The notes: generated by a model not told the origin, from the sequence alone. Positions 31,282-56,594 are shown, numbered from the stretch's first letter. The stretch: 64,000 bases of DNA from Palaeococcus ferrophilus DSM 13482 (GCF_000966265.1 NZ_LANF01000009.1:124001-188000); one strand, 5' to 3'. Made by a program: numbers and translations.

Positions 31282-31331
31282 AATTGTGGAGCCCCGGGCG
31301 GGATTTGAACCCGCGGCCTGCGGATTACAAG
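31282..31331. repeat. attL, 50-bp direct repeat (3' tRNA-Thr fragment)
   Basis: Identical over 50 bases to 56761-56810; the flanking bases differ on both sides (T versus C before, A versus T after). It covers the T arm, the acceptor 3' strand, CCA and five bases beyond, up to the anticodon loop. There is no tRNA 5' half on this side. Confidence 0.95.
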
Positions 31332-32165
31332 AGCGTCATCGCACTTAAAACGCTAAACGAAGTGTGGAACCATGAGAAAAAGGCTTTTTTGGAATGGCTT
31401 TCCCTCAAAATTGGCAGAGAAAGGACAGTGAAGGACTACTACAACGCGCTAAAGGTAATGTTCAAAGACTATGAAGTCAGGCCTACTAAAAAGAGTATCA
31501 AGAATGCTATTGACGCGCTCGGGAATAAGAAAAGGTACGTCTACGGCCTCAGGAACTTTCTGAAATATCTCACAGAAAAAGAACTCATCAACGAGGACTT
31601 CTCGAAAATGCTTCAAGGAGCAGCAAAAGCAAAGAAGAGCGGCGTGAGAGAAGTCCACCTCAACGACCACGAAATCACTGAGGCATGGCAGCATGTCAAA
31701 AACCGCCGCGAAGAGGCTCAGATGCTCTTCAAGGCGATGGTATTCTCAGGGATTCGCCTCGCGCAGCTCATCAGAATGTTCAAGACCTACGATCCGGCCA
31801 GGCTCCAGTTCCCGCTTGAGGGCATTGCTAGATACCCCATCAAGGACATATCTGAGGGTAAGAAAAAGGGCTTTTGGGCGTACTTCCCGGCCGACCTCGT
31901 GCCAGAACTAAGGAGATTTTCAGCGAAGGAAACGACAGCGTGGAAATGGGTTCGCTACGGGCGCGTTTCGGCAAACAGTATCAGGAAGTGGCACTACACC
32001 TTTTTGATACGGAAGGGCGTTCCTGCTGACCTCGCGGACTTCATTCAGGGGCGTGAGGCCGAAACGGTCGGAGCTCGGCACTACCTCAACAAGACGCTTC
32101 TCGCGGATGAGTGGTATTCCACGGTTGTTGATGACCTGAAGAAAGTCTTGGAGGGTGAAAAATGA
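31284..32165 (+). CDS. IntC, catalytic part of a split tyrosine recombinase
   Basis: The frame opens at TTG 31284 inside attL; the first 16 codons are the att-encoded peptide WSPGRDLNPRPADYK, followed by 277 residues unique to this side. They form the core-binding and catalytic domains of an archaeal tyrosine integrase: the first Arg in MVFSGIRLAQLIRMF, the His/Arg box in KWHYTFLIRKG, and the probable nucleophile Tyr in GARHYLNKTL. Joined in frame to intN at the right end it would make a 349-aa integrase. In the integrated state it has no proper start site, so it is probably silent and the integration is self-limiting. Confidence 0.9.
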   Translation: MWSPGRDLNPRPADYKSVIALKTLNEVWNHEKKAFLEWLSLKIGRERTVKDYYNALKVMFKDYEVRPTKKSIKNAIDALGNKKRYVYGLRNFLKYLTEKELINEDFSKMLQGAAKAKKSGVREVHLNDHEITEAWQHVKNRREEAQMLFKAMVFSGIRLAQLIRMFKTYDPARLQFPLEGIARYPIKDISEGKKKGFWAYFPADLVPELRRFSAKETTAWKWVRYGRVSANSIRKWHYTFLIRKGVPADLADFIQGREAETVGARHYLNKTLLADEWYSTVVDDLKKVLEGEK

Positions 32166-32840: not shown

Positions 32841-33006
32841 TCTTAAATATCACAATCGTATTCTCTATTTTGGGCACCTTCGGGCCTTCCTCCGCTCAAA
32901 TCACTTCTCTCAAATTCACAGCGAGGCTGAGGCCGTAGGGAGAGGGCTCTGATGAAACCCGAAGGCCGATGAGGCCGCCGAACAAACCCTCCGGAGGGAT
33001 GTGGAT
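32841..33006 (+). promoter_or_regulatory. Promoter and long leader of the envelope-protein operon
   Basis: TCTTAAATAT at 32841-32850 is a TATA box; the predicted start near 32875 leaves a leader of about 130 bases, long for this organism. CCTTCGGG (32877-32884) can pair with CCCGAAGG (32958-32965), and GGCCGATGAGGCC follows directly. The leader ends in GGAGGGAT before GTG 33007. A structured, possibly regulatory 5' UTR is inferred. Confidence 0.45.
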
Positions 33007-34779
33007 GTGAGGTTTCGGAAAAAGCTGGCTGGCTTGGTAGTGATTGCTATTTTCCTCGCGGCCCTGGCGGGCACGGCAAGCGCCGCAAGCCTCGATTTGC
33101 CGAAGTGGGTCATCGTTCCAGAGGATGCTACAAATTTCAGCGACGTGACGCTGTTCTGTGGGCTGGACGCGTATGATGCGAGCACGAACACGACGCCGTG
33201 CTATTATCAAGGCTCGGTAGTGAATGCGACGATAACATTCAATACAACGAGCAACTACCCGAAGCTTGTTTCTGGAAAAATCTTGAACGCGTTCAAGTTC
33301 AGTGGAAACACTGGTGAAGCAGTGTCGGTTGATTCGTTTAGTGTTCAGGAAATGACAAAAATGACAGTCGTAGCTTGGGTCTACTTGGATTCAGCCCCCA
33401 ACACAAGAAGGGCGATAATTCAACACGGGGCGAATATATGGGCAGTATATGCATATTCAAACGGTTGGGGGCTTGTTTACAAGAATGACACAGCAGGTTT
33501 GGAGAAAAAATACTCTGTGAGTGTCACATGGCAGGTAGGCAGGTGGTACATGCTCGGGATGGTATTTGACAGTGGAACAATTGAGTTTTATATGGACGGG
33601 GAGTTGGTATCAACGCAAACAGCAGAAGACACGCATATTCCAGCGTACGCGGGACAGCTCTCAATTGGTTCATATTGGAAGGGGTTAGAGGCATCTCTCC
33701 CGGGCAAGATTGACGAAGTACGCTTCTATGAGAATGTTGCCCTCTCCCCTGACGAAATCAAGCTTCTCTATCTTGCCGGTCGCAAGAAGCTCTCCGAACC
33801 CGCCAACTTCCGCCAGATCTTCAGCCCGCTCATGGACCTCACGAGGGACAGGGCGACCTTCTACGCCGGCCTCGAAGTCTCGACAAGCGACCCGAGCGGC
33901 TACGTGCCCGTGCCAGAGTCGGCGGTCAACATGAGCATCACGAGCGCCGAGAAGCTCCAGAGCGACTACACGAATGCCCCATTTTACTATCAGGGCCACT
34001 ACTGGTACCGCGCCGACAAGATCCAGTTCAACCTGCCGATCCAGTTTGAGACCGTCCGCACAAATGGCGACTTCGATGACGTCATAATACTTGATGAGGA
34101 TCAGAAGACATATGTCTATGAGCGCGAGTTCAAGGTCACGAACCCCACTGCCGCGAAGTTGAACATTGTCTATTCTCTCGACCCGACCGAGCTCGGCTTT
34201 TCCGTGCTCCAGTATCCAGAATTCGAGCTGGACGGGGTCCGTATGGTCTCTTGGAGACCCGATGAGAACTCAAGCGAGCTCTACCTCATCCGCACCGACA
34301 CCCTTGACCCTGGCGAAATCTCAACGCACTGGATCAAGAGCATCTGGACTCTTGGGAAGGAGGAGCTGAACTTCCCGGCGAAGCTCGAGGACTTTAGAAA
34401 CATCCTCGACTGGCAGACGGCCCAAAAGATGGCAGAGAATGCCGTGAAAGGAAAAGCGGACACTTGGGTCAGGGTCATCAAGATCTCAAGCAATGCTGAC
34501 GTCTCAAACGTGACGATATACGTGCCCTTGAAGGACGTCGAGGACGTGGATGACGTAGTCGAGGCCGTCGCCTTAACCGGCTCAAGGGCGACCTTGCAAG
34601 TCGAGGAGCTTGACGATGGCACCATCGCCGTCAAGGTTCCAGCTGATGCCTTCGTGAGCGGTGAGGCTGAGATCAAGGTCTTCTACAACAAGGAGACGAG
34701 CTGGTGGAAGAGCATCCTTGACAGGATTATGGGCATGGTCAAGATGATCAAGAGCTTTTTCGGCTTTGGAGGTGGCTGA
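33007..34779 (+). CDS. Secreted LamG-domain protein
   Basis: A 590-aa exported protein. The signal peptide (AGLVVIAIFLAALAGTASA) is followed by a concanavalin/LamG-like domain at residues about 60-250, recognised by MTVVAWVYLD, LGMVFDSGTIEFYMDGELV and the typical end GKIDEVRFYENVALSPDEI. The C-terminal 330 residues are beta-rich and unassigned. The last 25 residues (WWKSILDRIMGMVKMIKSFFGFGGG) form an amphipathic or membrane-associated helix, which may hold the protein at the cell surface. GTG 33007 fits the GGAGGGAT site better than GTG 33001. First gene of the envelope block; a binding role for surface glycans is possible. Confidence 0.75.
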   Translation: MRFRKKLAGLVVIAIFLAALAGTASAASLDLPKWVIVPEDATNFSDVTLFCGLDAYDASTNTTPCYYQGSVVNATITFNTTSNYPKLVSGKILNAFKFSGNTGEAVSVDSFSVQEMTKMTVVAWVYLDSAPNTRRAIIQHGANIWAVYAYSNGWGLVYKNDTAGLEKKYSVSVTWQVGRWYMLGMVFDSGTIEFYMDGELVSTQTAEDTHIPAYAGQLSIGSYWKGLEASLPGKIDEVRFYENVALSPDEIKLLYLAGRKKLSEPANFRQIFSPLMDLTRDRATFYAGLEVSTSDPSGYVPVPESAVNMSITSAEKLQSDYTNAPFYYQGHYWYRADKIQFNLPIQFETVRTNGDFDDVIILDEDQKTYVYEREFKVTNPTAAKLNIVYSLDPTELGFSVLQYPEFELDGVRMVSWRPDENSSELYLIRTDTLDPGEISTHWIKSIWTLGKEELNFPAKLEDFRNILDWQTAQKMAENAVKGKADTWVRVIKISSNADVSNVTIYVPLKDVEDVDDVVEAVALTGSRATLQVEELDDGTIAVKVPADAFVSGEAEIKVFYNKETSWWKSILDRIMGMVKMIKSFFGFGGG

Positions 34780-34826
34780 CTCGGTTGTTTGCGCCACCGT
34801 GATAACGCGCATGAGGTGATTGAGAA

Positions 34827-36161
34827 ATGAGGTGGAGGAAAACTCTCGGCCTGCTGGCCGTTTTCCTGGTTGTGTTTTCCGTCTTTGCCGTAGTGAGGGC
34901 AGCAACAATTACAGAGACCGAGTGGGAGAACGCCATTGTTGATCCAGGAATTGAGCTAATAGCCGGCACAAACGCCACCCTCAATGCCACAATACTAACC
35001 TCAAGCGGCGACCCCTTTGCCCTTAGCAGCTACACGAACGCCGACACGCTTGAGGTTACCGCGAAATTCGTAGATGAGTATGGAAACGCCTTGGACATGG
35101 ATGGGGACAGCGTTGCAGATGTTTATACTCTCACGAACACAAGCACTCCGGGCCTCTGGACTGGAACGATCACTGTCGGCAACGTGACTCCTGGCGAGTA
35201 CACCCTCAAGATTGAGGCCCTCGCCAAGAACAGCACCGCCAACACTATCGTTGACAATGCGACGCTCGAAATGAGCGTCTGGATCGCCGGCGGCCCGTAT
35301 TGGGTTGCCGTTGCTGACATCAAGGACGGCGACACGGTCGAGATTGGAAGCCTTAGCTTCACCATACGCGGCCTGAGCGATCTCGGAGCAATCCTCGACC
35401 TCGGAAACCTGAGCACCACCACGATCACGGACGATGACCGCGATGGCATCTTTGCCTGGAAGAACGACGTCACGAGCGATGGCGTTGATGACTGGATTGT
35501 CTTCGCAAAGAGCGACGATGACAGCGACAGATACGTGCTCATGGTCTACTCCAGCGATGCAAACCTCCTCGACGACTTCAACCTTGAGGACAAGTTCGAG
35601 GTTAGGAGCGACGACGGAAGGGTCAAGTTCACGAACAAGGTCTTCAAGGATCTCAACAATTACAAGGCGTATGTCGTTTGGGATGAGAGCCTTCTCGCCA
35701 AGCTCGGAATTAAGGCTGTTGATTATTACATCATCCCACTCCAGGGCCGCGACCACTGGAGAGAAGGATGGGGGAACGTCGAGAGGACTGACGTGAAGGT
35801 CGTCAAAAGGACCACCTACCTGTGGGGCCTCATGGGTGGCGAGGAAGAGGTCTACAGCGGCAACATATTCAACAAGAACGTGAACATTGACAACCTCATA
35901 AACGTCTTTGGAAAGTGGGTCGGCAATGCGGCATACTTCGGAAGCGGGCTGTGGGAGATCAGGAAGGGTCTCGGCGACATCACAATCCCAAGCAGCTACA
36001 GCCTCAAGGAAAGGAGCCTCAACGAGCTCTCTGTCAGCTCCGAGGACTTCAGAGGCTTCAACCCTGTCCTGAATCCGAGCGGAAAGGGCCTCTTCAAGCC
36101 AAGCCTCGACTGGAGAAGCATCCTCGGCCTTGACGAGGACGAGGACTCTACAAGCTCTTGA
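34827..36161 (+). CDS. Secreted beta-rich protein (copy 1 of two paralogs)
   Basis: A 444-aa exported protein: signal peptide LGLLAVFLVVFSVFAVVRA, then an Ig-like domain (SSGDPFALSSYTNADTLEVTAKFVDEYGNALD) with many N-x-S/T sites, a Asp-rich stretch with calcium-site character (ITDDDRDGIFAW, DGDSVADV) and a C-terminal region rich in aromatic residues. It is clearly paralogous to the protein at 48558-49901: SSGDPF, VDxYGNALD, IKALAKNST, LSDLG, DYYI-PL/PYKGR and VKIVKRTT are shared. No known domain beyond the Ig-like part. It may be a surface or filament subunit of the element. Confidence 0.7.
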   Translation: MRWRKTLGLLAVFLVVFSVFAVVRAATITETEWENAIVDPGIELIAGTNATLNATILTSSGDPFALSSYTNADTLEVTAKFVDEYGNALDMDGDSVADVYTLTNTSTPGLWTGTITVGNVTPGEYTLKIEALAKNSTANTIVDNATLEMSVWIAGGPYWVAVADIKDGDTVEIGSLSFTIRGLSDLGAILDLGNLSTTTITDDDRDGIFAWKNDVTSDGVDDWIVFAKSDDDSDRYVLMVYSSDANLLDDFNLEDKFEVRSDDGRVKFTNKVFKDLNNYKAYVVWDESLLAKLGIKAVDYYIIPLQGRDHWREGWGNVERTDVKVVKRTTYLWGLMGGEEEVYSGNIFNKNVNIDNLINVFGKWVGNAAYFGSGLWEIRKGLGDITIPSSYSLKERSLNELSVSSEDFRGFNPVLNPSGKGLFKPSLDWRSILGLDEDEDSTSS

Positions 36162-36175
36162 AGGGGGCCTGATCC

Positions 36176-37750
36176 ATGAGGGCCCTTCCAGCGACTTTCA
36201 TTATCTTCATTGTCCTTCTTTCTTCCTTCAGTGTTGCAGTAGCTGACAGCAGCTTCAACGAGACCATCAGCACGCCTGCCTTGGAGATGCCTTCTCTCAC
36301 GATTTCAGATTACGTGAACAAAGCTCTCATCACGCTCAAGGCCTGGCGTTTCGACAGCACCGGCCTAATTGAGACTAACACGGGAATCTACGTTGATAAA
36401 AGGTTTTGGGACTGGCTTTCAGGCTCAATCCAAGAGAGCGCCAACCTCACCGACACGGCCCTCAAATGGGCTCAGGTGTTCAACCAGAAGGTTCAGAACG
36501 ATGAACCAATCCAGTGGATCTTTATCACCTGGACAAAGCCGAACGAGAGGCTCAAGGAAGCCCTTGAAGCCCTCGGAGCTGAGGTGCTTTACGTTGACGA
36601 CGACATCAATGCCATCTCGCTCAAGGCGAAGCCCTCGCTCATCAAGAACCTCGTATATTCACAGGCATTCGACTTTGATTATCGCTTCTACATCCGCGAG
36701 GTCTGGCCCGACCTCTACGTCGAGACCGGCCCCACGATCTTGGAGAATGAGACCACATTCACTCCGGCTAACGTGACAATTACCCCTGAACAGGTTTCCG
36801 GCGCAATCTGGAATATCAAGCTCGTTAAGGCTGACCTCGCCTGGAGTAAGGAGGGCATAACAGGCAAGGGCGTCACGGTCGCGGTTCTTGATACCGGTGT
36901 GGACTGTGACCACGTGATGCTCCAGGGAGCTTGTGTGGGCTTTGAGAACTTTGTAACTGACGAGCCTGCCAAAGATTTGAACGGTCATGGAACCCACGTC
37001 GCCGGTATCATCGCAGGGAGGCCTACCAAAGTCACGTGGGAAGGAAAGCAGGTTTATGTGAGTGGTGTCGCTCCAGAGGCAAACATCCTCGCAGTCAAGG
37101 TTCTTGGCCAGAACGGCGGCGGCACGATGACGCAGATCATCCAGGGCCTCGACTATGTTGTCGAGTGGAAGAAAAAGCACCCCGGCGAGCCGATAGTTAT
37201 CAGCATGTCCCTTGGAAGTCCGTTCGGCTCTCCACGCGACCCGATGGTACAGAAGGTCGAGCAGATCATCAGGGAGGAGCACATTCCTGCGATTATTGCC
37301 GCAGGGAATGAGTTCGCAGTCATAGATTCTCCAGGACTTGCTTCGGGAGCCATTACAGTGGCTGCGGTGGATAGGGACATGAAAGTGGCGGACTTCAGCG
37401 GAAAGGGGCCGGGCCTAAACATCTACGACATCAAACCCGACATCGCCGCACCAGGAGTGAAAATCCTCTCTGCAAAAGCAGGAACAAAGAACGAGTTCAT
37501 CGCAATGTCGGGAACCAGCATGGCTACTCCACATGTGAGCGGTGTCGTGGCGCTGATTTTGCAGAAGCATGGCGATTTGACTCCAGAGACGATCAAACTC
37601 ATTCTCGAAAAGACGGCCTACCCCTTGGATGGCATTGACGCCCTGCCAACGTGGTCAGGAGCCGGAGTGGTTGATGCCTACGCCGCGGTCAAAGCCGAAC
37701 CAAATGAAGCTGGAGGACTCATCGACTTCCTCAGGAGGTTGCTCGGATGA
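36176..37750 (+). CDS. Subtilisin-like serine protease
   Basis: A 524-aa secreted subtilase. Signal peptide at 1-24, a propeptide of about 180 residues, then the catalytic domain with all parts: Asp in VAVLDTGVDCDHV, His in DLNGHGTHVAGIIAG, oxyanion Asn in IIAAGNEF, Ser in SGTSMATPHVSGVVAL. Compared with host pyrolysin or Tk-subtilisin it lacks C-terminal beta-jelly-roll domains. Its place inside the block of secreted proteins suggests that it matures or releases a partner on the cell surface, or helps breach the S-layer. ATG 36176 follows AAGGGGGCCTGATCC. Confidence 0.92.
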   Translation: MRALPATFIIFIVLLSSFSVAVADSSFNETISTPALEMPSLTISDYVNKALITLKAWRFDSTGLIETNTGIYVDKRFWDWLSGSIQESANLTDTALKWAQVFNQKVQNDEPIQWIFITWTKPNERLKEALEALGAEVLYVDDDINAISLKAKPSLIKNLVYSQAFDFDYRFYIREVWPDLYVETGPTILENETTFTPANVTITPEQVSGAIWNIKLVKADLAWSKEGITGKGVTVAVLDTGVDCDHVMLQGACVGFENFVTDEPAKDLNGHGTHVAGIIAGRPTKVTWEGKQVYVSGVAPEANILAVKVLGQNGGGTMTQIIQGLDYVVEWKKKHPGEPIVISMSLGSPFGSPRDPMVQKVEQIIREEHIPAIIAAGNEFAVIDSPGLASGAITVAAVDRDMKVADFSGKGPGLNIYDIKPDIAAPGVKILSAKAGTKNEFIAMSGTSMATPHVSGVVALILQKHGDLTPETIKLILEKTAYPLDGIDALPTWSGAGVVDAYAAVKAEPNEAGGLIDFLRRLLG

Positions 37751-37893
37751 AGAAGTTCATTATCTTCCTCCTGATTATCCTCCTCTTCACGCTCTTCCTA
37801 GTCGGCGTGCAGAAGTTCCTAGAGAACGTGAGCCTTGCAATAGCAATCGCCCTCGTGCTCCGCATCGTGGATGAGTATGTGGATGGTGATTAA
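37747..37893 (+). CDS. Very small membrane protein
   Basis: A 48-aa ORF whose ATG overlaps the stop of the protease gene (ATGA). Nearly all of the N-terminal half is hydrophobic (FIIFLLIILLFTLFLVGV) and a second shorter segment (SLAIAIALVLRIV) follows. Good coupling and codon pattern support it. Role unknown; it may be a subunit or chaperone of the envelope complex. Confidence 0.6.
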   Translation: MKKFIIFLLIILLFTLFLVGVQKFLENVSLAIAIALVLRIVDEYVDGD

Positions 37894-37894
37894 C

Positions 37895-38148
37895 ATGTTC
37901 GGCCTCGAAGACCTTCCGTTTCCAGTCAAGCTCATCATTGCAATTATCTTCGACGTAGTTGACGCACTAAATTGGCTTCCAGGCAGTGACGTGGTTGAAA
38001 TGCCCATCGGGGGGCGATTGCATACCTGCTGACCGACAACGTCGGAGCGATGGCAGCAGGAGCGGCGGATGGAATCCTTCCCGCACCAATCGACTTCATT
38101 CCAACAACAACCGCCCTCGTGCTCGCGGACCATATGGGGTGGCTCTGA
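37895..38148 (+). CDS. Small membrane protein, apparent -1 frameshift
   Basis: ATG 37895 has GGTGATTAAC upstream and gives FGLEDLPFPVKLIIAIIFDVVDALNWLPG, a hydrophobic protein, up to a run of six G (38009-38014). As written the frame then stops at TGA 38034. With seven G the frame continues as GGAIAYLLTDNVGAMAAGAADG...VLADHMGWL to TGA 38148, an 84-aa protein with two membrane segments. The downstream part has no start of its own, so one missing base in the G run is the simplest reading. It may be a sequencing error or a recent mutation. Confidence 0.6.
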
Positions 38149-38189
38149 GCGCTTTCTTTTTTCTCAATTCAACGTGAGAGGTGAGAAAA

Positions 38190-38573
38190 ATGGGGCTGCT
38201 CGCGATCATATTCCTCGTATTCATCATCACGTTTGCACTCGCGACGATGTGGTATTCCAGCGGTGAGGCTGCGTTCTTCCTAACTCTCGGCATAGTGGGC
38301 CTCGTCTTCTTTTGGGATCTCTCGTCCAACGGAGGCCAGTTCCTAGCCACACCAATCATCATGATCGGTGACTGGCTCGGCATCAGGCTCTGGACGGCGC
38401 TCTTCCTCTTCCTGACGACCTTAGGTGGCTATGTTTTCGGAAATTGGGGCAAAGCAATCGTCTTCCTCGTGCTGGCATTGATCATCCTTTACGCCCTCGG
38501 CCTCCTCGGACCGATAGCGAGCGGCGACCTGAGCGCGATCAAGCAGGCCGTCCAAGTCGGAGGTGGTGGGTGA
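38190..38573 (+). CDS. Polytopic membrane protein
   Basis: A 127-aa protein with four hydrophobic segments (residues about 2-20, 28-45, 66-84, 88-106) and a short glycine-ending tail. ATG 38190 follows GAGAGGTGAGAAAA. It is coupled to the next gene (TGATG overlap). I do not recognise a family; the compact four-helix design is compatible with a small pore or anchor component of the envelope block. Confidence 0.65.
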   Translation: MGLLAIIFLVFIITFALATMWYSSGEAAFFLTLGIVGLVFFWDLSSNGGQFLATPIIMIGDWLGIRLWTALFLFLTTLGGYVFGNWGKAIVFLVLALIILYALGLLGPIASGDLSAIKQAVQVGGGG

Positions 38574-39289
38574 TGTACAATCCCTCCCTCGCCGCCGCGA
38601 CCTCACAGGCAGTCATGCTGAGCGTCTTTGTCGTAGTAGCGGCGTTCTTTGCTTACTTCGTCACCTCCAGAAGGGCCGACGTATTTGGAGCCATCCTGCT
38701 CATGCTCCTCGCCGTATTCCTCGCAAAGAACTACTATTATCTCGTCTACGCCGCCGGTGCGATGCTCGTCCTTGCTACTGTGGCTTATATCACCAGCTAT
38801 GATGAAGGGACAGTATCAGGGGCGCTGTTTTGGGCCGGAATCGGCCTCTTCGCCTCGCTCATGATATTCTACGTCATGCCCGAAACAATCAAGATGGGGC
38901 AGGATCAGGCATTCATCTACATCGTGCTCGTCCCGAGCTTCCTCATTGTCCTTATTTCGGACTGGAAAGGAAAATTCAACTTCGAGTGGGAGAACGCGCT
39001 CGCCATCCTTGCTCCAGTCTTCTTCGCCCTGGCATTTGTCAGCATGGTGGGGGTATCACACATCATTTGGGGAGCGGCGATCATGCTCTTTGCTGTCATA
39101 CTCGAATACCTCAATGCAGGATTTGTCTCGACGGTGGCTTTCGTCAGTGGCTTCATCATCTGGCTCGACGATGTTGTCGGATATTCGCTTTACCCTGACC
39201 ACGGAAACCTGGCAGCATTACACCTCCTTGGCCCAATAGGAGCGGGCCTCGTACTCATCTACATATACTTACTCGTGTGGGGTGATTGA
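38573..39289 (+). CDS. Polytopic membrane protein, about eight segments
   Basis: A 238-aa protein made almost entirely of hydrophobic helices (about eight), with short loops and charged positions near DWKGKFNFEWEN and WLDDVVGYSLYPDHGN. ATG 38573 overlaps the previous stop by one base. The frame is open upstream to 38444 but that part overlaps the preceding gene and has no ribosome site. It is the largest integral membrane protein of the element and the natural candidate for the membrane channel of a transfer machine; this is by position only, as VirB6-like similarity cannot be shown. Confidence 0.65.
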   Translation: MYNPSLAAATSQAVMLSVFVVVAAFFAYFVTSRRADVFGAILLMLLAVFLAKNYYYLVYAAGAMLVLATVAYITSYDEGTVSGALFWAGIGLFASLMIFYVMPETIKMGQDQAFIYIVLVPSFLIVLISDWKGKFNFEWENALAILAPVFFALAFVSMVGVSHIIWGAAIMLFAVILEYLNAGFVSTVAFVSGFIIWLDDVVGYSLYPDHGNLAALHLLGPIGAGLVLIYIYLLVWGD

Positions 39290-39290
39290 A

Positions 39291-39974
39291 GTGAGAAAGA
39301 AAGCTCTCGCTCTAGTGTTTATTTTGATTTTAGCCGCTCCAGCCGTCTCGGCCCTGAGCCTGAAGGACCTACTCAAAGGGAGCATGGACGCAGCCCTCGA
39401 CCTGTTCAAAAGAGAAATCTCACCAATAGACGGCTACAAATGCGTCAGCAAAGCCGAATCCATCATCCTTGAAGGGGCGCACTGGTATAATCCCGATTAT
39501 TACATCTACGCCGAAAATGCAACCGTGGAGTTCTCATGGTGGATTCCAAGGCACGTTGACGTCAAAGCAAAGGCATATAGGGTTTATTTTGGCCTCTTTG
39601 CCCTCCAGGTTGAGGAAAACGACGACATCTGGTGGACGTGGTGGAGACCCTATGGAAGCAAAGGGCCAGGACTCGGAGCCTTTTGGGTCAGCGGTTTCGA
39701 CTGGAAGAGAAGTGGAGTCAGCGAGGCAAAGAAGGCGTGCATCGCCTATGATCTGCCAAAGAGCGAGGACATCCTGAGCCTCGACTACGAGAACATGACC
39801 ATCCTCGAAAACGGAACCGTGCAGATCGTTCTTGAGAACGGGACAGAGCTCTTCAGGGACTTTGATGAGGTTTTCAAGATTAAAGAGATCAGAACGGGAA
39901 GTTTTGAGTTCAAGCACCTGATTGGGCCGCTCTATCTTGTTAGGAAGAAAGATGAGGAAGGAGGTGAAGAGTGA
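39291..39974 (+). CDS. Secreted protein of unknown function
   Basis: A 227-aa exported protein: signal peptide KALALVFILILAAPAVSA, then a soluble domain with tryptophan-rich segments (EFSWWIPRHVDV, DDIWWTWWRPYG) and two Cys (YKCVSK, KKACIAY) that could form a disulfide. GTG 39291 has GGGGTGATT upstream; GTG 39282 is also in frame but lies inside the site. No family recognised. Confidence 0.62.
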   Translation: MRKKALALVFILILAAPAVSALSLKDLLKGSMDAALDLFKREISPIDGYKCVSKAESIILEGAHWYNPDYYIYAENATVEFSWWIPRHVDVKAKAYRVYFGLFALQVEENDDIWWTWWRPYGSKGPGLGAFWVSGFDWKRSGVSEAKKACIAYDLPKSEDILSLDYENMTILENGTVQIVLENGTELFRDFDEVFKIKEIRTGSFEFKHLIGPLYLVRKKDEEGGEE

Positions 39975-40273
39975 TGGATATAAAGAGGGGTCTGATTCTA
40001 TCCGCCCTGTATGCTGTGCCGTTTTGGATAATTGCAGGACCTCCAGCGAGTGACATTGGACACGCCATACTGATTCCAATATACGTCGCAATCAGCTTCA
40101 TACTCGCCGGCATCGTGATGGTGGTTGGCGCAAAGTTCTTCGACCTCGACATAATACCGTGGGGGCTCATTATTCTCGCCAGCCCGCTGTTTGCAGTGCC
40201 CTTCACTCTGATTCCAGGGCTCTGGTACGTGCCGGCGGCGGTGATTTTCGTCATCGGGCTGATAGGGGGGTAA
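39974..40273 (+). CDS. Small membrane protein, three segments
   Basis: A 99-aa protein with hydrophobic segments near residues 10-27, 34-54 and 62-95. ATG 39974 overlaps the stop of the previous gene (TGATG) and has GGAGGTGAAGAG before it. Function unknown; part of the contiguous membrane-protein run. Confidence 0.6.
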   Translation: MDIKRGLILSALYAVPFWIIAGPPASDIGHAILIPIYVAISFILAGIVMVVGAKFFDLDIIPWGLIILASPLFAVPFTLIPGLWYVPAAVIFVIGLIGG

Positions 40274-40276
40274 GCT

Positions 40277-40429
40277 ATGGACGAGGTTACCAAGCTTGAA
40301 CGCATGCTCGAGGTCAACAGGGCGCTTAAGGAGAGGTTTGCACGGGAGGAAGCCCGCATCCTGCGCCTCCTCAAGCAGGCAAAGCAAGCAAAGATGAAAG
40401 GGGTGAATGAGCGTGGAACCCGCGCCTGA
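40277..40429 (+). CDS. Small helical charged protein
   Basis: A 50-aa ORF, strongly charged and helical (KLERMLEVNRALKERFAREEARILRLLKQAKQAKMK), with an even mix of acidic and basic residues typical of a short coiled coil. It begins four bases after the previous stop and overlaps the next gene by 23 bases. Supported by position and composition only. Confidence 0.5.
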   Translation: MDEVTKLERMLEVNRALKERFAREEARILRLLKQAKQAKMKGVNERGTRA

Positions 40430-41318
40430 GGTCAGAGAAGACATCCGCGCCGAGCTCGCGGCGAAGGTCGAGGGGAAAGAAAGCCAGAAAAGCAGGGTAC
40501 TCAAGCTCACACTAATCGGCATTGGCGCCGGCGCAGTCGCTGGCCTCGTGATGCTCGCCTTTCCAGGGTTCTACGACACGCTCGTCCAGGTACACGAAAG
40601 CCTGGCCGCGCCTAGATATTCATTCTATGTATTAATCGGTAGCATCCTCTTCGTCGAGTTCATGAGGGCGACTTGGGTCGAGTCGGCGAAAGCCCGCTCA
40701 AAGAGGCTCATCCCGCTCACATCACCCGAAATGGAAATTTGGGTCAAGGAAAAGCCGCTCCTCGGCCTCAAGTTCCCGTTCACGAGCAGGGAAGTCAAGA
40801 GCCGCAAGATAAAGCCCCACATTGTGGAAACGGAGTTGGGCTGGCGCGTGTATCCGAACAAGTCCCTCCTCTCGCCACAGTGGGACGGTGAGATCTACTT
40901 CATCCCGTATGATTCAATACATGGCTACGGCAACACGAGGGTCATCAGCGCCAGGAAACCAAGCCAACCAACTTACTACGAGACCGACCCCGTGACCGGT
41001 GAGGCCATTCCGGTCTACGTGTGGGAGCCCATAGATTTGGGCGAGGAAAAGTACATGAGAGCGCAGAAGGAAATCGCCTACCTCCAGGCCGAGAACCGCA
41101 TCCTCCAGGAATACGCTGCCAGGGGCTACGAGCTGGCCAAGACCATTAGCCAAATTCCGCAGGAGTTCTTCGAGGAACTCTCCAACAGAGGCTTCGAGAA
41201 GGCGAAGCAGATCCTCGACATTATGGGCAAGGGCTTCTTCAGCGAAGTCGGGAAGATCAAGAAGGAAGAGATCTCCGCCATTTTGGAAGCAATCAAGAAA
41301 GACCGCGAGGCCTGGTGA
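40407..41318 (+). CDS. Membrane protein with large cytoplasmic domain
   Basis: A 303-aa protein: short charged N-terminus, two membrane segments (residues about 32-52, LTLIGIGAGAVAGLVMLAF, and 70-87, YSFYVLIGSILFVEFM), then about 215 cytoplasmic residues. This part has a beta region (WRVYPNKSLLSPQWDGEIYFIPYDS) and a C-terminal coiled coil (EEKYMRAQKEIAYLQAENRILQEYAA). The design suits a membrane dock for the downstream ATPase. ATG 40407 follows GGGGTGA. No family recognised. Confidence 0.65.
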   Translation: MSVEPAPEVREDIRAELAAKVEGKESQKSRVLKLTLIGIGAGAVAGLVMLAFPGFYDTLVQVHESLAAPRYSFYVLIGSILFVEFMRATWVESAKARSKRLIPLTSPEMEIWVKEKPLLGLKFPFTSREVKSRKIKPHIVETELGWRVYPNKSLLSPQWDGEIYFIPYDSIHGYGNTRVISARKPSQPTYYETDPVTGEAIPVYVWEPIDLGEEKYMRAQKEIAYLQAENRILQEYAARGYELAKTISQIPQEFFEELSNRGFEKAKQILDIMGKGFFSEVGKIKKEEISAILEAIKKDREAW

Positions 41319-41344
41319 CTCTTTCGTTTTTCAATTTCCGCCGT

Positions 41345-41480
41345 GAAAGGGGCCGGACGTGAGTAGGGGTTCCGAAAGCGTCCGCCCCCACGGCAACGTC
41401 GGCCCGTGTGGGCCAAAAGGGCCGCGAGGTGATCAAGTCAAAGGCTGGCTTGATGGAGTGAAGGCCACACATCACGGGAA
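41345..41480 (+). ncRNA. Candidate structured RNA or leader upstream of the wHTH gene
   Basis: The 192-base gap 41319-41510 is GC-rich and has nested complementary segments. GGCCG (41351-41355) can pair with CGGCC (41400-41404), enclosing GGACG (41355-41359) with CGTCC (41379-41383). Further on, GTGAT (41429-41433) can pair with ATCAC (41471-41475), enclosing ATCAAG (41432-41437) with CTTGAT (41449-41454). No ORF fits. It could be a structured 5' leader or an independent RNA; pairing was found by eye and no covariation is available. Confidence 0.4.
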
Positions 41481-41510
41481 TCGAGCATTGGAGTCGGGGG
41501 AGGTGAAAAT

Positions 41511-42056
41511 GTGGCGAACGGGTTAGTCCTAAGTAGGTTTGAGTATATCTCCCGTTTGAAGGCCGAAGCGGCCGAGGATGGGGAAGCCAAGTACCTAGAC
41601 CTCGCTCTTTCTCTCATGGAAAAGGCGACACAGCTTGAGGAGGAGATGGAAAAAGTCCCTGGCATTTACAAGGAGAAAAAGCTCGAAATTGCACTTTCCA
41701 CGATAGAGCAGTACAAGCAGGCAAACGAGCTCCTCATCAAGGCGATTTTGGTTGGCGAGAGTGCAGAGATGGCATTGAGAAAGCTCGAAAGGATGCTGAG
41801 TTCAAGAGCGACGCTGAGGACGAAGATTATCGCAGTCCTCTACGGTGAGACCGAACCAGTAGGCCCCTCCGAGCTCGCCGAGCGCTTCGGCATCTCGGCA
41901 CAGGCAGTACATCAGGCACTCCAGGAGCTCGACAAGCTTAAGGTCGTAGAGAAGGACGAGAAAGGCCACTACAAGCTCCGTGACGGCGTGATGGACGAGG
42001 TGTTTCGGCTTCTCTGGCAGAGCGTTGCAGAGCTCAAGGCGAGGGGAGGCGTATGA
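41511..42056 (+). CDS. Coiled-coil protein with C-terminal winged helix
   Basis: A 181-aa protein. The first 110 residues are helical and charged with coiled-coil character; residues about 105-165 form a winged helix-turn-helix (PVGPSELAERFGISAQAVHQALQELDKLKVVEKDEKGHYKL). Probably a DNA-binding regulator or an adaptor that brings DNA to the ATPase encoded next to it; the two genes overlap by four bases (ATGA). Start is GTG 41511 after GGGGGAGGTGAAAAT. Confidence 0.72.
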   Translation: MANGLVLSRFEYISRLKAEAAEDGEAKYLDLALSLMEKATQLEEEMEKVPGIYKEKKLEIALSTIEQYKQANELLIKAILVGESAEMALRKLERMLSSRATLRTKIIAVLYGETEPVGPSELAERFGISAQAVHQALQELDKLKVVEKDEKGHYKLRDGVMDEVFRLLWQSVAELKARGGV

Positions 42057-43306
42057 TGAGTGCATATCTCGACCGCTTCGTCGTCCAGCCGCAGGAAATC
42101 AAAATCGACCAGCCAAGAACTCATGCCGTGGGAATTACCCGAGGCAGGAATTTCGTTTACGTGTCCGCCGACATGGTGCATCGCTATATCTCCGGCCAGA
42201 CTAACGCAGGGAAAACCACCCTTGCACAGACGCTCATGGAAGTTGACTTCCTCCGTGGGCGAAAAGTCGTCGAGATAGAGCCTGCCCTTGAGGCGAAGAA
42301 CGAGAGAGCCTTCATGAATTTGCCAAACGATGACGATGTAATGCTCGAGGTCCTCAACAAGTACTTCCACCTTGAGCCAAGACCCTTCAAGGCCATCGTA
42401 TACTCTCCAGCGACGCGGAAGTACAGGGCTTTCATGAAGAACGACGAGGGGATCCGCTCGAAGTTCTACAAGTCGCTCAAAATCACCGAGCCCGACGTTG
42501 TAGACCTCATCCCGGCCATTTTCCCTGGTGGATCCATTGAAAGGCTCATCATCAACAAGGCATATAAGAAATACACTGAAGAGATCCGGCCAAAGAGGAA
42601 AGAGCGCTCTATATCAGAATTCCTGGAAGTCTTCGAGGAGGTCGGAAAAGAGGCAAACTTCAGCAGCTTCACCCTGCTCAAGCTCGAATACATAGCGAGC
42701 GTCCTCCACAGCAACGGAGAGTACAAAATAGATGAAATACTCAAGAAAAAAGACGAGATCAGCGTTTTCACGTTCACTTTCATAAGGGACCCGCTCGAAA
42801 GGTACCTGTGGGCCATGGCCATTCTCAACATTATCTATGACAGATGGGAGTATCTCAAGCGGAAAGAAGATATTCTGAGCTTCTATGTAGCCGATGCCCA
42901 TCTGCTCGCACCAAAGAAGAAGAAAGACATGATCGACACCCTCGCCAGGTACCAGGAGCGCATGAAACAGAACTTGCAAGTCTACTCAAGAATCTCGCGA
43001 GGAAAAGGGCTATTGTGGACATTTGACAGTCAGGAATTCGACGACCTTGACGATGTCGTGGTTGCACAGTGCCAAGAGAGGTTCATCAAACGCATGAGGA
43101 ACCGGGAAGTTGCCGACAGGCTGAAGCTCGACCACACAGAGCTGCGGAGGCTCGACAAGAAGTTCGCATACTTCGATGATGGCTACATGGTCAAGAAAAT
43201 CCTCGTCAGGCCACCCATGAGCCGGAAGGCCCGCTCCGGAGAATTTCTTCCGATACACTTCATCAAGGAATACGAGAGGTGGGAGAATGAGGAAGCGAAT
43301 TATTAG
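42053..43306 (+). CDS. P-loop ATPase, HerA/FtsK/VirB4-like
   Basis: A 417-aa ATPase with Walker A ISGQTNAGKTTLAQTL at residues about 45-60. A hydrophobic strand ending in Asp, ILSFYVADAHLLAP near residue 280, is the likely Walker B, though it has DA in place of the usual DE/DD. RGKGLLWTFDSQEFDDL resembles the sensor strand of HerA/FtsK proteins (hhhhTQxPxxL). Such ATPases pump DNA or energise conjugation and packaging. No membrane segment, so it would dock on a membrane partner, and it lies between two candidates (40407 and 43287). ATPases of this type are a conserved part of the pT26-2-like elements, as I recall. Confidence 0.75.
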   Translation: MMSAYLDRFVVQPQEIKIDQPRTHAVGITRGRNFVYVSADMVHRYISGQTNAGKTTLAQTLMEVDFLRGRKVVEIEPALEAKNERAFMNLPNDDDVMLEVLNKYFHLEPRPFKAIVYSPATRKYRAFMKNDEGIRSKFYKSLKITEPDVVDLIPAIFPGGSIERLIINKAYKKYTEEIRPKRKERSISEFLEVFEEVGKEANFSSFTLLKLEYIASVLHSNGEYKIDEILKKKDEISVFTFTFIRDPLERYLWAMAILNIIYDRWEYLKRKEDILSFYVADAHLLAPKKKKDMIDTLARYQERMKQNLQVYSRISRGKGLLWTFDSQEFDDLDDVVVAQCQERFIKRMRNREVADRLKLDHTELRRLDKKFAYFDDGYMVKKILVRPPMSRKARSGEFLPIHFIKEYERWENEEANY

Positions 43307-44411
43307 TGTCTTACTCATAATAATATATATAGGAATATTGGAAAGCGCTGCGGCCATGAGTCAAACATTGAAACTCGATATTAGCAGTGAGGTATATATT
43401 GATAACATGCTCATCACAATAGATAAGAACAAACTCGACAACCGCACCGCCGCGATTATTGATTACCAGAACAGAACCTACCTCGTTTGGGAAAATGAAA
43501 ACATGACAATCGCAAATTACACAATCAAAGTTACCCCGTTCAAGGACTACGTTTACCTCGTGGTTTCCGCGCCCTTCAAATTCACCATTCGCTATCCAGT
43601 AGAAGAAAACCAAACCTCCACAAACACCACCGTCGCCAATCAAACGAGCTCAAATCAAACGGTCATCCCAAACACCACCACGCCGGCTCCTGGACCTGCT
43701 AACCTTACAGCAAATTATACATGCTCCAGCGTCGAGGAGTGTCAAAGAATCATCGACCAGCTCGAGGCAGAGCTCGAAAAGGAGAAACAGGAAAAAGCCG
43801 CGCTTGAGCGACAGATACAGTATCTCAAGCAGCAACTGAATCTCACAGAGCTCGAAAAGCAACAGTATGAGCAGCAAATCAAAATACTCGAGCAGGCCCT
43901 CGAGGAGAAGAACAAGCGCATACGTGAATTAGAGAGACAGATCGAGGAACTGCAGGCGCAGCAGTGGAGTTGGGAAACCTTCCGCGAGAAGAGCGAGGAA
44001 CAGTACCTTCTCTGGACGCCATACCTCTTCCCGGCCGTGTTAGGAAGCCTCGTCGTATACTATCGCAGATACAAGCGGACGAAGAAGTACGCCGAGGTCA
44101 TGATAGACCAGAAGGCCAGGGAGCTGAAAGAGGAGCTCCTGAGTGAGTACCTAAAGAAGGACATCCTGAGGGCCAAGATCGAGACCATCGTTGATGATCC
44201 GAACCTCCTCGTAATCCTGAGGACCATCATCCCGCAGCTGACCGGCTCGAGCGAGATCACGAAAGGTGACATCCTGAACATCGACATCGACCAGGTCGCC
44301 GAGCTCGCGAGAAAGAAGTTCCTGCTGAAGGAGAACCGCGTTGAATACCTGAAGAAGAAGCTCGCCGAACTCAAAGAGCAGATAAAGGAGGAGGTGGGCG
44401 AAGATGTTTGA
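43287..44411 (+). CDS. Exported coiled-coil protein with membrane anchor
   Basis: A 374-aa protein with an N-terminal signal or anchor (IISVLLIIIYIGILESAAA), an external beta domain, a linker with many N-glycosylation sequons (residues about 105-140), and a long coiled coil (about 150-225, ECQRIIDQLEAELEKEKQEK onward). A membrane segment (LFPAVLGSLVVYYR, about 245-260) and a charged cytoplasmic tail follow. An external stalk joined to a cytoplasmic domain suits a transfer-apparatus spanning protein. ATG 43287 lies 20 bases inside the ATPase gene, which points to coupled translation and a direct partnership. Confidence 0.7.
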   Translation: MRKRIISVLLIIIYIGILESAAAMSQTLKLDISSEVYIDNMLITIDKNKLDNRTAAIIDYQNRTYLVWENENMTIANYTIKVTPFKDYVYLVVSAPFKFTIRYPVEENQTSTNTTVANQTSSNQTVIPNTTTPAPGPANLTANYTCSSVEECQRIIDQLEAELEKEKQEKAALERQIQYLKQQLNLTELEKQQYEQQIKILEQALEEKNKRIRELERQIEELQAQQWSWETFREKSEEQYLLWTPYLFPAVLGSLVVYYRRYKRTKKYAEVMIDQKARELKEELLSEYLKKDILRAKIETIVDDPNLLVILRTIIPQLTGSSEITKGDILNIDIDQVAELARKKFLLKENRVEYLKKKLAELKEQIKEEVGEDV

Positions 44412-44676
44412 ATGGTTCTTCTTCCTTTCCCTTGCTTTGAGCGGCTGGCTAATCTACGAGATCACAAAAGACAAAGTGAGGGGCTACGGCAGATATTGGG
44501 TCACGATGAACGTCGAGGGCGACGCGGACCGGCTCGAGTACCTCATCAAGCAACTCGCCAAGGACCAGAAGATCAAGATTCGCAGTTTCAAAATCAGCGC
44601 CGAAAAGCCTTCCAAGCCGAAGAGGAAAAAGTTTTTTGGACGAACCACTAAAAAAGAAGAGGTGGGTCCCAAATGA
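44404..44676 (+). CDS. Small membrane-anchored basic protein
   Basis: A 90-aa protein: one N-terminal membrane segment (FFFLSLALSGWLIYEI), a short alpha/beta domain (YWVTMNVEGDADRLEYLIKQLAKD), and a very basic tail (KPSKPKRKKFFGRTTKK) that could bind nucleic acid or phospholipid. Overlaps the genes on both sides by a few bases. Unknown family. Confidence 0.6.
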   Translation: MFEWFFFLSLALSGWLIYEITKDKVRGYGRYWVTMNVEGDADRLEYLIKQLAKDQKIKIRSFKISAEKPSKPKRKKFFGRTTKKEEVGPK

Positions 44677-46106
44677 AACGGCTTGCCACCCTCCTAATCT
44701 TTCTCCTCGCCGGCGCGATGGTGCCGGCCGGGATGGTGATAGCTGAACAGCAGCCCGTGACAACCCTCCAAGTTGTAGCCAGTCAGACCTGGACGAAGGA
44801 GATTCCAGGAGCAGTTGTGAACTGGACTGGTACATTTGACTACTCAAAAGAAGACGGGTGGGAAGCGGCTTTTGCAGTCTACTTCACAGAAACGGGCAAC
44901 ACTCACGGGGTCGCGGCAACTGAGAAAGGCTTCGTTGACGCAGACGGGAAATACATCTGGTTCCTAAAGAACGTCCAGACTGAGGACAATCCAGAAAATA
45001 AGGAACTCGGGCTCCTTGAAAGCTGGCACGAGCTCGTCGTGAAGTTCATCGACCCCCTAAGCGGGAAAGTCATCATAGACAACGAATTCAACGGCGAAAC
45101 CTACACCCTCTATGTTGGAGATGAAATAGACATCTCGGAAGAGCTCGCCGATGCCTGGCAGGAGAAAACCATTCTCGAGCTGAAGGGCATAAATACCGGG
45201 CTCTTCGGCTCCAAGGCCGTCCTCGTACTCCACCACATCACCGCCATGAGCGGAACCGTGGAAGTCTATCCAAATCCAGGAAATCCGGCCGGGACAGAGC
45301 TCGGAGAAGGAGCACCTGCCCCGGCAGAGAACCAAACAGAACCCACTCCGAAAATCCCACATCTCAACCCGAGCACGCCAACGGCCGTGATAATAGTCGG
45401 TGAGCACGCGGCAGGAGCCGATGTGGCAGCGGGAGCAAAGGTTGGAATAGCTGTTCAGAAGTGGATTGACATCATCAAAGACAAGACAGCAGGAGAAGCA
45501 GCCAGGACATTCCTCGGGCCTCTTGGGCCTGCGATAACCAAAGCAACCATGGCTCCAGTCCAGAACCTCAACGCCGATGCCATGCTCGACACCGAAGTTA
45601 CTGACCCTGAGAACCTTGCCCTTGTTGTGTACTCTGTTGGAGGGCCAGCAGCCAACCAGTACTCCGCCATGCTCAACAACCGCACGGATCTCCCCGTGAG
45701 ATTCGTGAAAGAGGACGGCAGATGGTACCTTGTCAGCAAAACCGGTGAGCGGTGGAGCGGCAGCTATGGTGTTATCATGCTAATTCCAGCATCTAAAGAC
45801 GCCTACGAACTGAAGATGAACCTCATGAGCGGCAAGTTTAAAATTATGGATGTGCTTGTTGCAGGTCTCGACAGATGGGGAACCTACGCCGCCTGCGAAC
45901 TCCTCCAGGGCGAGTTCCTCAAGCCTATCAGCGGCATGAAGCCCGATGCAGACCTAATGACAGTGATTACACTACAAACACAGGTTCTTACAATGTTTGC
46001 GGACCCATTCAGCATTTTCGAGGTTGGCCCCGACCCAACAAAAGTGCCAATAACCGCCATCATCGTGGATAAAAATGGAAAAATAGTGAAAGTACTCGTT
46101 GGTTAG
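44673..46106 (+). CDS. Large secreted protein, last of the envelope block
   Basis: A 477-aa exported protein: signal peptide LLIFLLAGAMVPAGMVIA, a beta-rich first half (VNWTGTFDYSKEDGWEAAFAVYF), a proline-rich linker with sequons near residue 215-235 (APAPAENQTEPTPKIPHLNPS), and a second domain with TAVIIVGEHAAGADVAAGAK and ENLALVVYSVGGPAANQYSAML. The last motif resembles the S-layer/copper-amine-oxidase-like peptides used by archaea to state conservation of surface proteins, but no family can be assigned. ATG overlaps the previous stop (ATGA). A T-rich terminator follows. Confidence 0.68.
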   Translation: MKRLATLLIFLLAGAMVPAGMVIAEQQPVTTLQVVASQTWTKEIPGAVVNWTGTFDYSKEDGWEAAFAVYFTETGNTHGVAATEKGFVDADGKYIWFLKNVQTEDNPENKELGLLESWHELVVKFIDPLSGKVIIDNEFNGETYTLYVGDEIDISEELADAWQEKTILELKGINTGLFGSKAVLVLHHITAMSGTVEVYPNPGNPAGTELGEGAPAPAENQTEPTPKIPHLNPSTPTAVIIVGEHAAGADVAAGAKVGIAVQKWIDIIKDKTAGEAARTFLGPLGPAITKATMAPVQNLNADAMLDTEVTDPENLALVVYSVGGPAANQYSAMLNNRTDLPVRFVKEDGRWYLVSKTGERWSGSYGVIMLIPASKDAYELKMNLMSGKFKIMDVLVAGLDRWGTYAACELLQGEFLKPISGMKPDADLMTVITLQTQVLTMFADPFSIFEVGPDPTKVPITAIIVDKNGKIVKVLVG

Positions 46107-46126
46107 TTCTTTACTCTTTTTTAGTT
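46107..46126 (+). terminator. T-rich transcription terminator
   Basis: The 20 bases right after the stop contain TTCTTT and CTCTTTTTTAG, a T-rich tract typical of archaeal intrinsic termination. It marks the end of the long envelope operon. Confidence 0.5.
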
Positions 46127-46194
46127 GAGTGCAATCTCAACCCATGCAAAAAGTATTTCAAGTTACCCCTCCCAAAGATTGAGAGGTGAGAGCT

Positions 46195-46383
46195 ATGAGT
46201 GATGGGGATGATGCATTCATCCAAATCTTTTTGGTAGTATTCTTCGCAATCCTTCTAATGTTCATAGGGCGCACAGTAGGTGGGCCACTTGGAGAAATTT
46301 TTAGTAATGTTGGCTTTTTAATAGCCTCCACGGTGCTCTTGGGGATAGCCATTGTCATCTTAATTCTGGTGTTACGTGAGTGA
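46195..46383 (+). CDS. Small membrane protein, two segments
   Basis: A 62-aa protein with an acidic start (MSDGDDAF) and two membrane segments (IFLVVFFAILLMFIGRTVG and LIASTVLLGIAIVILILVL). ATG 46195 follows GAGAGGTGAGAGCT. It has its own spacing from the operon terminator and ends just before the decayed patch. Function unknown. Confidence 0.6.
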   Translation: MSDGDDAFIQIFLVVFFAILLMFIGRTVGGPLGEIFSNVGFLIASTVLLGIAIVILILVLRE

Positions 46384-46474
46384 CCACACTATCTTTACAG
46401 ACAGGGTCTCATGAAGAGTTAGACCACCCCTGATGTAATCTACCCCACAGAGCGGTTTACACAACCCCTGTCGG

Positions 46475-46775
46475 CTACTCCCATAACGGAGAATCACCAG
46501 CTACCTTCATCAAAATACTCAAAGCACCGTTCACATCAGCGTTTATCTTGTACATTGGAACTTCCTCAAATAGACTACTTCAATATCTTTCGGCACAATG
46601 GATGCATTGGCACGAGACGGCACCACAAGGATTTTTCTTACAATCTTAACATTGGCTCCCGCAAGGTTCCTCGCATACCCATTGATCTGACTAATGCGCT
46701 CTTCAGTGACTTTACAAACAGCCTTAACCTCAACTATAACTCGCTCTATGCCCCCTCTAACGGGTGACGAAGGAG
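46475..46775 (-). pseudogene. Gene remnants: TnpB C-terminus and an unidentified fragment
   Basis: On the minus strand 46555-46475 reads YKINADVNGALSILMKVAG and then stops. NADxNGAxxIL is the conserved C-terminal motif of IS200/IS605 TnpB nucleases. Upstream of it, 46775-46556 is open in another frame and reads GIERVIVEVKAVCKVTEER, then RNLAGANVKIVRKILVVPSR, like the end of a nuclease-type or ATPase-type protein, without a start. Both are broken pieces. The 516-base gap 46384-46899 holds no intact gene; its last 100 bases are an AT-rich promoter region. Confidence 0.6.
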
Positions 46776-46899
46776 CAGGATTAGCTACTGTAAGGTCTTA
46801 CTCTTCTGTGCACATTTTATAAATTCTAGAAAACCTTAAATATTTAATTTAAAAACTTAGAACTGAGAGAGAAAACAATTGATTTAAGGGGGGAGACAT

Positions 46900-47422
46900 A
46901 TGAGAAAACGAGAGCTCATCTTATACTACTTAATTAAAAGGTTCTACGAAATATATAAGCACCCCCTCGAAGGTCGTAAAAAAACTTCAAAAGTTAATAT
47001 TCTTAGTCGAGCATTTTGACTTGGATACGAGCAGAATAGTTCCTTCTTCTGGAATCACAGGATATAAGTTTAAAATTTGGTATTATGGCCCATATTCAAG
47101 TGATCTCAAAGAGGATACCGATAATTTAGTAAAAGAGGGCGTACTAAACGAGGACGTTAAATATCTCGATGACTTTTTGTACACAGATGAATCCCCCAAG
47201 AGACTGTATCTCTATTCCCCGAAAACTAAGATCAGAATTGAAAATAAGCTTGATAGGCAAACTATCCAAAAGATCGACAAAATACTAGAAAAATTTGGTA
47301 CCCAATCTCCATATGAGCTGGAGAAAACAGTGTCAAGCCTGCTGAATCTAGATCCTCTGAAAAAGCTGGAAGTGTGGGGGAAGTCATTAGATGAGTACAT
47401 CTCGTCCTCAAATACTAATTAA
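46900..47422 (+). CDS. YwgA-like protein, apparent +1 frameshift
   Basis: ATG 46900 (after GGGGGGAGACAT) opens MRKRELILYYLIKRFYEIYK and then meets a run of seven A (46978-46984). As written it stops at TGA 47017; with six A it continues as RKKLQKLIFLVEHFDLDTSR into the frame that runs to 47422, giving a 173-aa protein. RKKLQKLxFL and the following YYGPYSSDLKEDTDNLVKEG match the YwgA/DUF4065-like group seen in phage-associated and toxin-antitoxin settings. Base composition is much more AT-rich than the element's other genes. It overlaps the next gene by 32 bases. Confidence 0.6.
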
Positions 47423-51414: not shown

Positions 51415-51524
51415 GACTTCTCCCCCCATTAACTAATTTTCAATAAACCCCCTTTACCCTGAGGAATATTAATCTTTCGCTACAATATCAAAGTTCAGAG
51501 CACGAAAATCATTTTATACTCATA

Positions 51525-56489: not shown

Positions 56490-56547
56490 TGCCTCATGAC
56501 CGCAATGGCTATATCCAGTCCGCAGTTAGTATTTCAGTGTAGTCACA

Positions 56548-56566: not shown

Positions 56567-56594
56567 ACAATATTGGGCGGAGGAGGGCATTGAA

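Follow-up and report, generated by a model that had tools for sequence, protein, structure and literature searches.

Within a 64,000-nucleotide stretch of the Palaeococcus ferrophilus DSM 13482 genome (GCF_000966265.1, NZ_LANF01000009.1:124001-188000; referred to as the window), a 25.5-kb element is integrated in tRNA-Thr(TGT), spanning positions 31282-56810. It carries a module of 16 co-directional, tightly packed genes (33001-46106; small genes were called by orthology). The module as such is already known from plasmid pAMT11 (GQ254849) and from T. kodakarensis TKV1. What appears to be new is, first, that the stalk protein g15, by profile comparison, is a homologue of the pT26-2 core protein t26-13p, which joins two plasmid families. 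Second, a covarying RNA hairpin is located within the motor cassette of the module and is confined to elements of this kind among 94 Thermococcaceae genomes. It is quite possible, if short of probable, that in this block an integrative plasmid of the TKV1/pAMT11 type has its envelope and motor module, which moves element DNA across the envelope. On the best reading, this apparatus differs from known type IV secretion systems (T4SS).

When profiles were compared by hhalign, g15 matched t26-13p at 99.6%. The extracellular head domains alone were then compared in order to exclude a coiled-coil artefact. The heads matched at 98.9% with a score of 92.6, while 60 column-shuffled profiles scored at most 20.2 and a reversed profile scored 18.9. 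None of the other module proteins gave a credible match to the t26-13p head domain. The two proteins are also alike in architecture (signal peptide, head, coiled coil, transmembrane (TM) helix and tail), and the stalk gene adjoins the ATPase gene in both plasmid families, with the order reversed. For the proteins conserved within the pT26-2 family, a lack of similarity to any protein outside it has been reported (Badel et al. 2019, PMC6972569). The stalk head also weakly matches (best E 4e-9) the N-terminus of a conserved host exoprotein of about 740 amino acids (aa) which is encoded beside an ABC transporter gene and was recorded at L088 and L091-L095.

The pT26-2 core thus has a homologous stalk beside a HerA-superfamily ATPase (t26-14p), together with a similar integrase (48% identity to that of the window) and an AbrB-like gene, but the other core genes compared have no profile-level match to the module. 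In the set that defines the pT26-2 family (t26-5p, 6p, 7p, 11p, 13p, 14p and 15p), the match is clear for t26-13p, at superfamily level for the ATPase, and lacking for the rest, so that the window element is not assigned to this family.

The second partner, ATPase g14, contains a Walker A motif and a Walker B region, and it has C-terminal motor motifs in common with the HerA (DUF87) helicase-translocases. The HerA/FtsK-like ATPase of an earlier note on this DNA is thus present as far as motifs go, while its assignment to the superfamily is weak: DUF87 was detected in only two of the eight g14 orthologues, and host HerA was matched at 85.7% (hhalign). The full-length profile of t26-14p was matched at 83%. 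Because host HerA matches g14 equally well, the likeness between g14 and t26-14p is at superfamily level only, and a special kinship deduced from the ATPase alone was rejected. Differences from HerA are the operon context and the Walker B region, where residues 281-282 are invariantly Asp-Ala in 8 of 8 orthologues, in contrast to an invariant Asp-Glu in the t26-14p ATPases. Structure prediction was uninformative for g14 (predicted local distance difference test, pLDDT, 37) and gave no convincing fold match for the membrane protein g12 (pLDDT 52), because the alignments, with three sequences each, were too shallow.

That the module might be a divergent conjugation system, homologous to VirB4/VirD4 machines, is very improbable. 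The superfamily of the ATPase would fit such a system, and the earlier note had suggested comparing the ATPase (42053) with type IV secretion parts. This comparison yielded a weak TraD/AAA_10 similarity below threshold and neither VirB4 nor VirD4. With one ATPase, sub-threshold matches and no further T4SS part recognised, a plain T4SS reading was rejected. The plasmids of the pT33-3 type and the conjugative plasmids of Sulfolobales represent archaeal transfer with a motor of the HerA/VirB4 class, but they resemble the module in working only. The conjugative Thermococcus plasmid pT33-3 and its kind employ VirB4- plus VirD4-like proteins (PMC12857230), whereas the module has a single divergent ATPase.

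The elements that carry the module are mosaics, in which every gene has its own similarity pattern. Pairwise identities of g13 and g14 correlate across the eight elements (rho 0.81), whereas there is no correlation between g14 and g15 (rho 0.03), although these two genes overlap. In the seven RNA-bearing elements, the identity of the noncoding gap correlates with that of g12 (rho 0.74), g13 (0.84) and g14 (0.80) but not with g15 (-0.10), and there is no significant correlation with any of the remaining module genes. Permutation p values for the gap correlations are 0.004-0.013, uncorrected for 12 tests, and adjacency contributes to them. As similarity breaks sharply between g14 and g15, the data suggest, as a further finding that appears to be new, that g12, the RNA, g13 and g14 are swapped as a unit, independent of the other module genes.

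Junctions between module genes overlap or have gaps of at most about 54 bp. The sole exception is a 192-bp gap directly upstream of the winged-helix gene g13, and it is here that hairpin 1 is found. The hairpin folds alike in 7 of 7 integrated elements (z -3.4 to -6.0), and no shuffled sequence was equally stable. A covariance model made from three similar sequences recovers the remaining four (E 1e-10 to 3e-5). According to the pair counts, 98.5% of the cells are paired and 12 of the 19 pairs have changed on both sides. The covariation score of 0.689 compares with 0.187 for shuffled and at most 0.104 for slid controls, and hybrid hairpins, with the 5' arm from one element and the 3' arm from a divergent one, generally fold far more poorly. 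In the 94 genomes, the model has one match in each of seven, always upstream of g13 and nowhere else. The apical pattern is exact in six genomes (reversed control: 0). pAMT11 lacks hairpin 1 but has retained hairpin 2. A match to the loop pattern in IMG/VR was dismissed, as it is in an unrelated phage contig, and no comparable hairpin was seen upstream of the pT26-2 ATPase when single-sequence folds were inspected by eye.

AGUA opposite GAA is the sarcin-ricin consensus. Judged by loop size and sequence, the internal loop of hairpin 1 would be of the sarcin-ricin (bulged-G) type, in a hairpin that is a new host for this motif and is matched by no family among the Rfam 15 covariance models. In its standard form, the motif is a 5x4 internal loop (PMC8450098).

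Hairpin 1 might instead work as single-stranded DNA, for example as an origin of transfer or packaging. DNA hairpins covary too, and the site adjoins a DNA-binding protein and a DNA motor, which would be apt for its recognition. This is nonetheless improbable: RNA is favoured by G-U pairing on the coding strand, by the much weaker scores of the model on the reverse strand, and by the 5x4 AGUA/GAA loop, which is a motif of RNA. Most likely, the RNA is a cis-acting leader for translation or transcription of g13 and g14. A possible short leader reading frame (window 41400-41500), with a GTG start and about 10 codons, overlaps hairpin 3 and is preceded by a GAGGTGA motif which is kept in 8 of 8 elements. 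A more far-reaching idea, which we regard as speculative and rather doubtful, is that hairpin 1 is itself a working part of the motor cassette, where it could, for example, scaffold the winged-helix protein and the ATPase or select their substrate, in a role like that of a packaging RNA. The module would then be an RNA-assisted DNA-transfer machine, with a stalk and motor core common to two archaeal plasmid families.

Orthologues of the module genes, with their order kept, occur in eight elements: that of the window, the free plasmid pAMT11, and six other integrated ones. Gene content and order are conserved from the LamG protein through the S-layer (surface layer) protein, and the modules of pAMT11 and TKV1 agree gene by gene and in order with that of the window. 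One of the elements sits where TKV1 is expected, in a genome (G023) which is very probably that of T. kodakarensis. The ATPase is carried by 7 of the 94 genomes sampled from the family and by none of the further genomes sampled across the phylum. Integration sites were confirmed for five elements (tRNA-Thr, -Arg, -Tyr, -Phe and -Val, with repeats of 40-55 bp), and as these differ, the module has integrated independently. Pairwise ratios of nonsynonymous to synonymous substitution (dN/dS) in module genes are 0.02-0.34 wherever synonymous change is unsaturated, which indicates purifying selection. Given these ratios and the order-conserved orthologues in seven other elements, the block is not due to chance. 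The earlier note had let its proposal depend on conservation of the block in related elements, and with eight of them the module reading is not refuted on this count.

The window element is bounded by attachment repeats, one of them inside the tRNA gene, and has a split integrase, as expected for an integrated element. It differs from pAMT11 in its variable region and in having no pAMT11-type Rep (DUF7845, Rep-Arvir), for which neither this nor any other integrated element gave a tblastn match. As Thermococcales plasmid families are named after their replication protein (PMC6972569), we class the window element by the TKV1/pAMT11-type module that it carries and do not place it in the pAMT11 replication family.

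The element behaves like foreign DNA and is targeted by CRISPR. A DNA search of the 94 genomes gave many near-exact matches of 31-41 bp, and 296 spacers were extracted from the CRISPR arrays around them. Twenty-one spacers match the compared elements, three of these only pT26-2 or pGE2. The module-matching spacers come from many Thermococcaceae genomes and target g01, g03, g08, g12, g13, g14 and g17. No spacer matched the 38 kb of host flank in the window, and shuffled spacers had no matches. Since the loci were picked for matching the module, the counts are no estimate of a rate. In several genomes, repeated DNA matches of 42-48 bp lie in the protease gene and in ATPase-cassette genes; they were excluded as spacers because those examined had no surrounding array.

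These data bear on whether the module is kept for its benefit to the host, as a surface or protein-secretion system that alters the S-layer or exports proteins, and not for moving DNA. The S-layer domain of g17, the subtilisin, and the relation of the stalk head to the host exoprotein mentioned above would fit, as would reports that the TKV region is expressed and that deletions of TKV2 and TKV3 impair growth (PMC6972569, PMC8155482). The patchy occurrence of the module, its mosaic exchange, its targeting by CRISPR and its presence on a free plasmid point instead to a mobile-element function, and we consider a host-beneficial system rather unlikely. Homology to host surface proteins, which the earlier note had named as a point against its module, was seen as domain sharing (S_layer_C, stalk head) and not as wholesale identity with host proteins.

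The components of that note could largely be confirmed: its roughly 15 co-directional, overlapping genes number 16, and the subtilisin (PF00082), the coiled-coil protein with its signal peptide, the polytopic membrane proteins recognised by hydropathy, and the P-loop ATPase are real. The block, given as 33007-46383, is real as well, though its last gene ends at 46106. Overlooked were the LamG domain of g01, the S_layer_C domain of g17, and the structured RNA, which lies in the one large gap. As to function, the best-supported reading is that of a mobile element's transfer or secretion module, but one that cannot be recognised as a type IV secretion system.

If the module moves element DNA, the winged-helix protein g13 may bind this DNA and pass it to g14. 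The ATPase could dock on the membrane via g12 and also on the stalk g15, at its cytoplasmic tail, and the channel for DNA might be formed by polytopic proteins, for example g07, g08 and g10. The coiled coil and beta head of g15 would extend toward the S-layer, while g17, g03, and g01/g02/g18 might remodel this layer and touch another cell. Support comes from the superfamily of g14, whose members are DNA translocases. Several points weigh against it. The module has no match to a relaxase, a pilin or a VirB4/VirD4 pair; pAMT11 has been typed as non-mobilizable, but the known conjugative plasmids of archaea have no recognised relaxases either. The surface proteins would suit roles in adhesion, vesicles or virions equally well. 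The role in DNA transfer is deduced from sequence, and the Asp-Ala at Walker B may mean that catalysis by g14 is unusual. Finally, the window element has neither a Rep nor an MCM of the pAMT11 type, and its g05 is frameshifted, which may be decay or an assembly error, so that this copy may be less than fully active.

The surface proteins could also belong to vesicles that carry the plasmid and are studded with module proteins, or to enveloped-virus-like particles, with the ATPase loading the DNA, as has been proposed for pR1SE-like plasmids or pleolipoviruses. There are many membrane and secreted proteins in the module, and, in line with the earlier note, neither a pilin match nor an icosahedral capsid was found; no major capsid protein was recognised by PHROGs or Pfam, which a divergent capsid could escape. 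DNA can be carried by Thermococcus vesicles. The same idea has been raised for pT26-2 (Badel 2019, PMC6972569), and pAMT11 has a Rep with a relative in pleolipovirus SNJ2, namely the Rep of that virus (PMC13107129). Against packaging, PHROGs gave no vesicle or pleolipovirus structural matches except for the LamG domain and the protease, and g14 has no relatives in the viral-contig and phage collections searched. Packaging of this kind seems unlikely to us, yet it deserves serious attention.

Table 1. Features of the integrated element. Positions are counted from the first nucleotide of the window.
Feature	Position	Strand	Evidence and remarks
attL	31282-31331	no strand	exact 50-bp direct repeat, contains 3' half of tRNA-Thr(TGT), identical to 56761-56810
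SSV-type tyrosine integrase, C-terminal part	31284-32165	+	PF16795 E 2e-50; split by integration
g01, secreted LamG-domain protein, 592 aa	33001-34779	+	PF13385 E 5e-23; orthologues 57-72%
g02, secreted surface protein, 444 aa	34827-36161	+	orthologues 48-88%; paralogue at 48552
g03, secreted subtilisin-family protease, 524 aa	36176-37750	+	PF00082 E 4e-58; orthologues 66-95%
g04, membrane peptide, 48 aa	37747-37893	+	orthologues 63-98% in all elements
g05, small membrane protein, ~85 aa, frameshifted	37895-38148	+	orthologues intact, 85-91 aa; here second half in other frame
g07, polytopic membrane protein, 130 aa	38181-38573	+	hydropathy; orthologues 32-98%
g08, polytopic membrane protein, ~8 TM helices, 239 aa	38570-39289	+	hydropathy; orthologues 39-92%
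g09, secreted protein, 230 aa	39282-39974	+	signal peptide by hydropathy; orthologues 43-57%
g10, polytopic membrane protein, 100 aa	39971-40273	+	hydropathy and orthology
g11, basic protein, 50 aa	40277-40429	+	orthologues in 3 other elements
g12, membrane protein, large conserved C-terminal domain, 303 aa	40407-41318	+	orthologues 58-88%; motor-cassette member
Noncoding leader, 192 bp, with two further hairpins	41319-41510	+	only large gap of module
RNA hairpin 1, 5x4 internal loop AGUA/GAA	41340-41394	+	covariation, covariance-model searches, shuffles
g13, winged-helix (wHTH) protein, 181 aa	41511-42056	+	PF12802 above cut-off; 4-bp overlap with ATPase gene
g14, HerA/FtsK-superfamily ATPase, 417 aa	42053-43306	+	Walker A GQTNAGKTT; conserved C-terminal motifs
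g15, stalk	43287-44411	+	signal peptide, beta head, coiled coil, one TM helix, cytoplasmic tail; t26-13p homologue
g16, 90 aa, hydrophobic N-terminus	44404-44676	+	orthologues 66-81%
g17, secreted protein with S-layer outer domain (S_layer_C)	44673-46106	+	PF05124 in 8/8 orthologues
g18, g02 paralogue	48552-49901	+	found in 4/8 elements
Split integrase, N-terminal part	56496-56831	+	open reading frame runs into attR tRNA repeat
attR	56761-56810	no strand	exact 50-bp repeat within tRNA-Thr(TGT) at 56766-56842 (-)

Outside the module, a low-GC insertion (46107-48485) separates g17 from g18. Within it, a SocA/Panacea-type antitoxin gene (47021-47422) overlaps a partner gene of no assigned family (47391-48161), and the two are likely to be a toxin-antitoxin pair. 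A lipoprotein with LEA_2 domains (PF03168) is encoded on the opposite strand (50467-51429, -), with a 54% identical copy in element G093. The DpdA-like protein at 54475-55377 (+; PF23859 E 1.5e-21), of which element G071 has an 83% identical copy, suggests 7-deazapurine DNA modification or evasion of restriction by the element. PHROG-family matches to a Holliday junction resolvase and a transcriptional regulator were obtained for 55374-55916 and 56136-56489, respectively.

To our knowledge, it is not known how most archaeal plasmids pass between cells. The homology of the stalks ties together two Thermococcales plasmid families which have been handled as separate, and it narrows the search for transfer functions to a small shared core of a stalk and a HerA-class ATPase. 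A structured RNA that is exclusive to a DNA-translocase operon of mobile elements is unusual, and its co-inheritance with a membrane protein, a winged-helix protein and an ATPase provides a concrete hypothesis for the motor. As TKV1 resides in the genetically tractable T. kodakarensis, both the idea of transfer and the RNA are directly testable.

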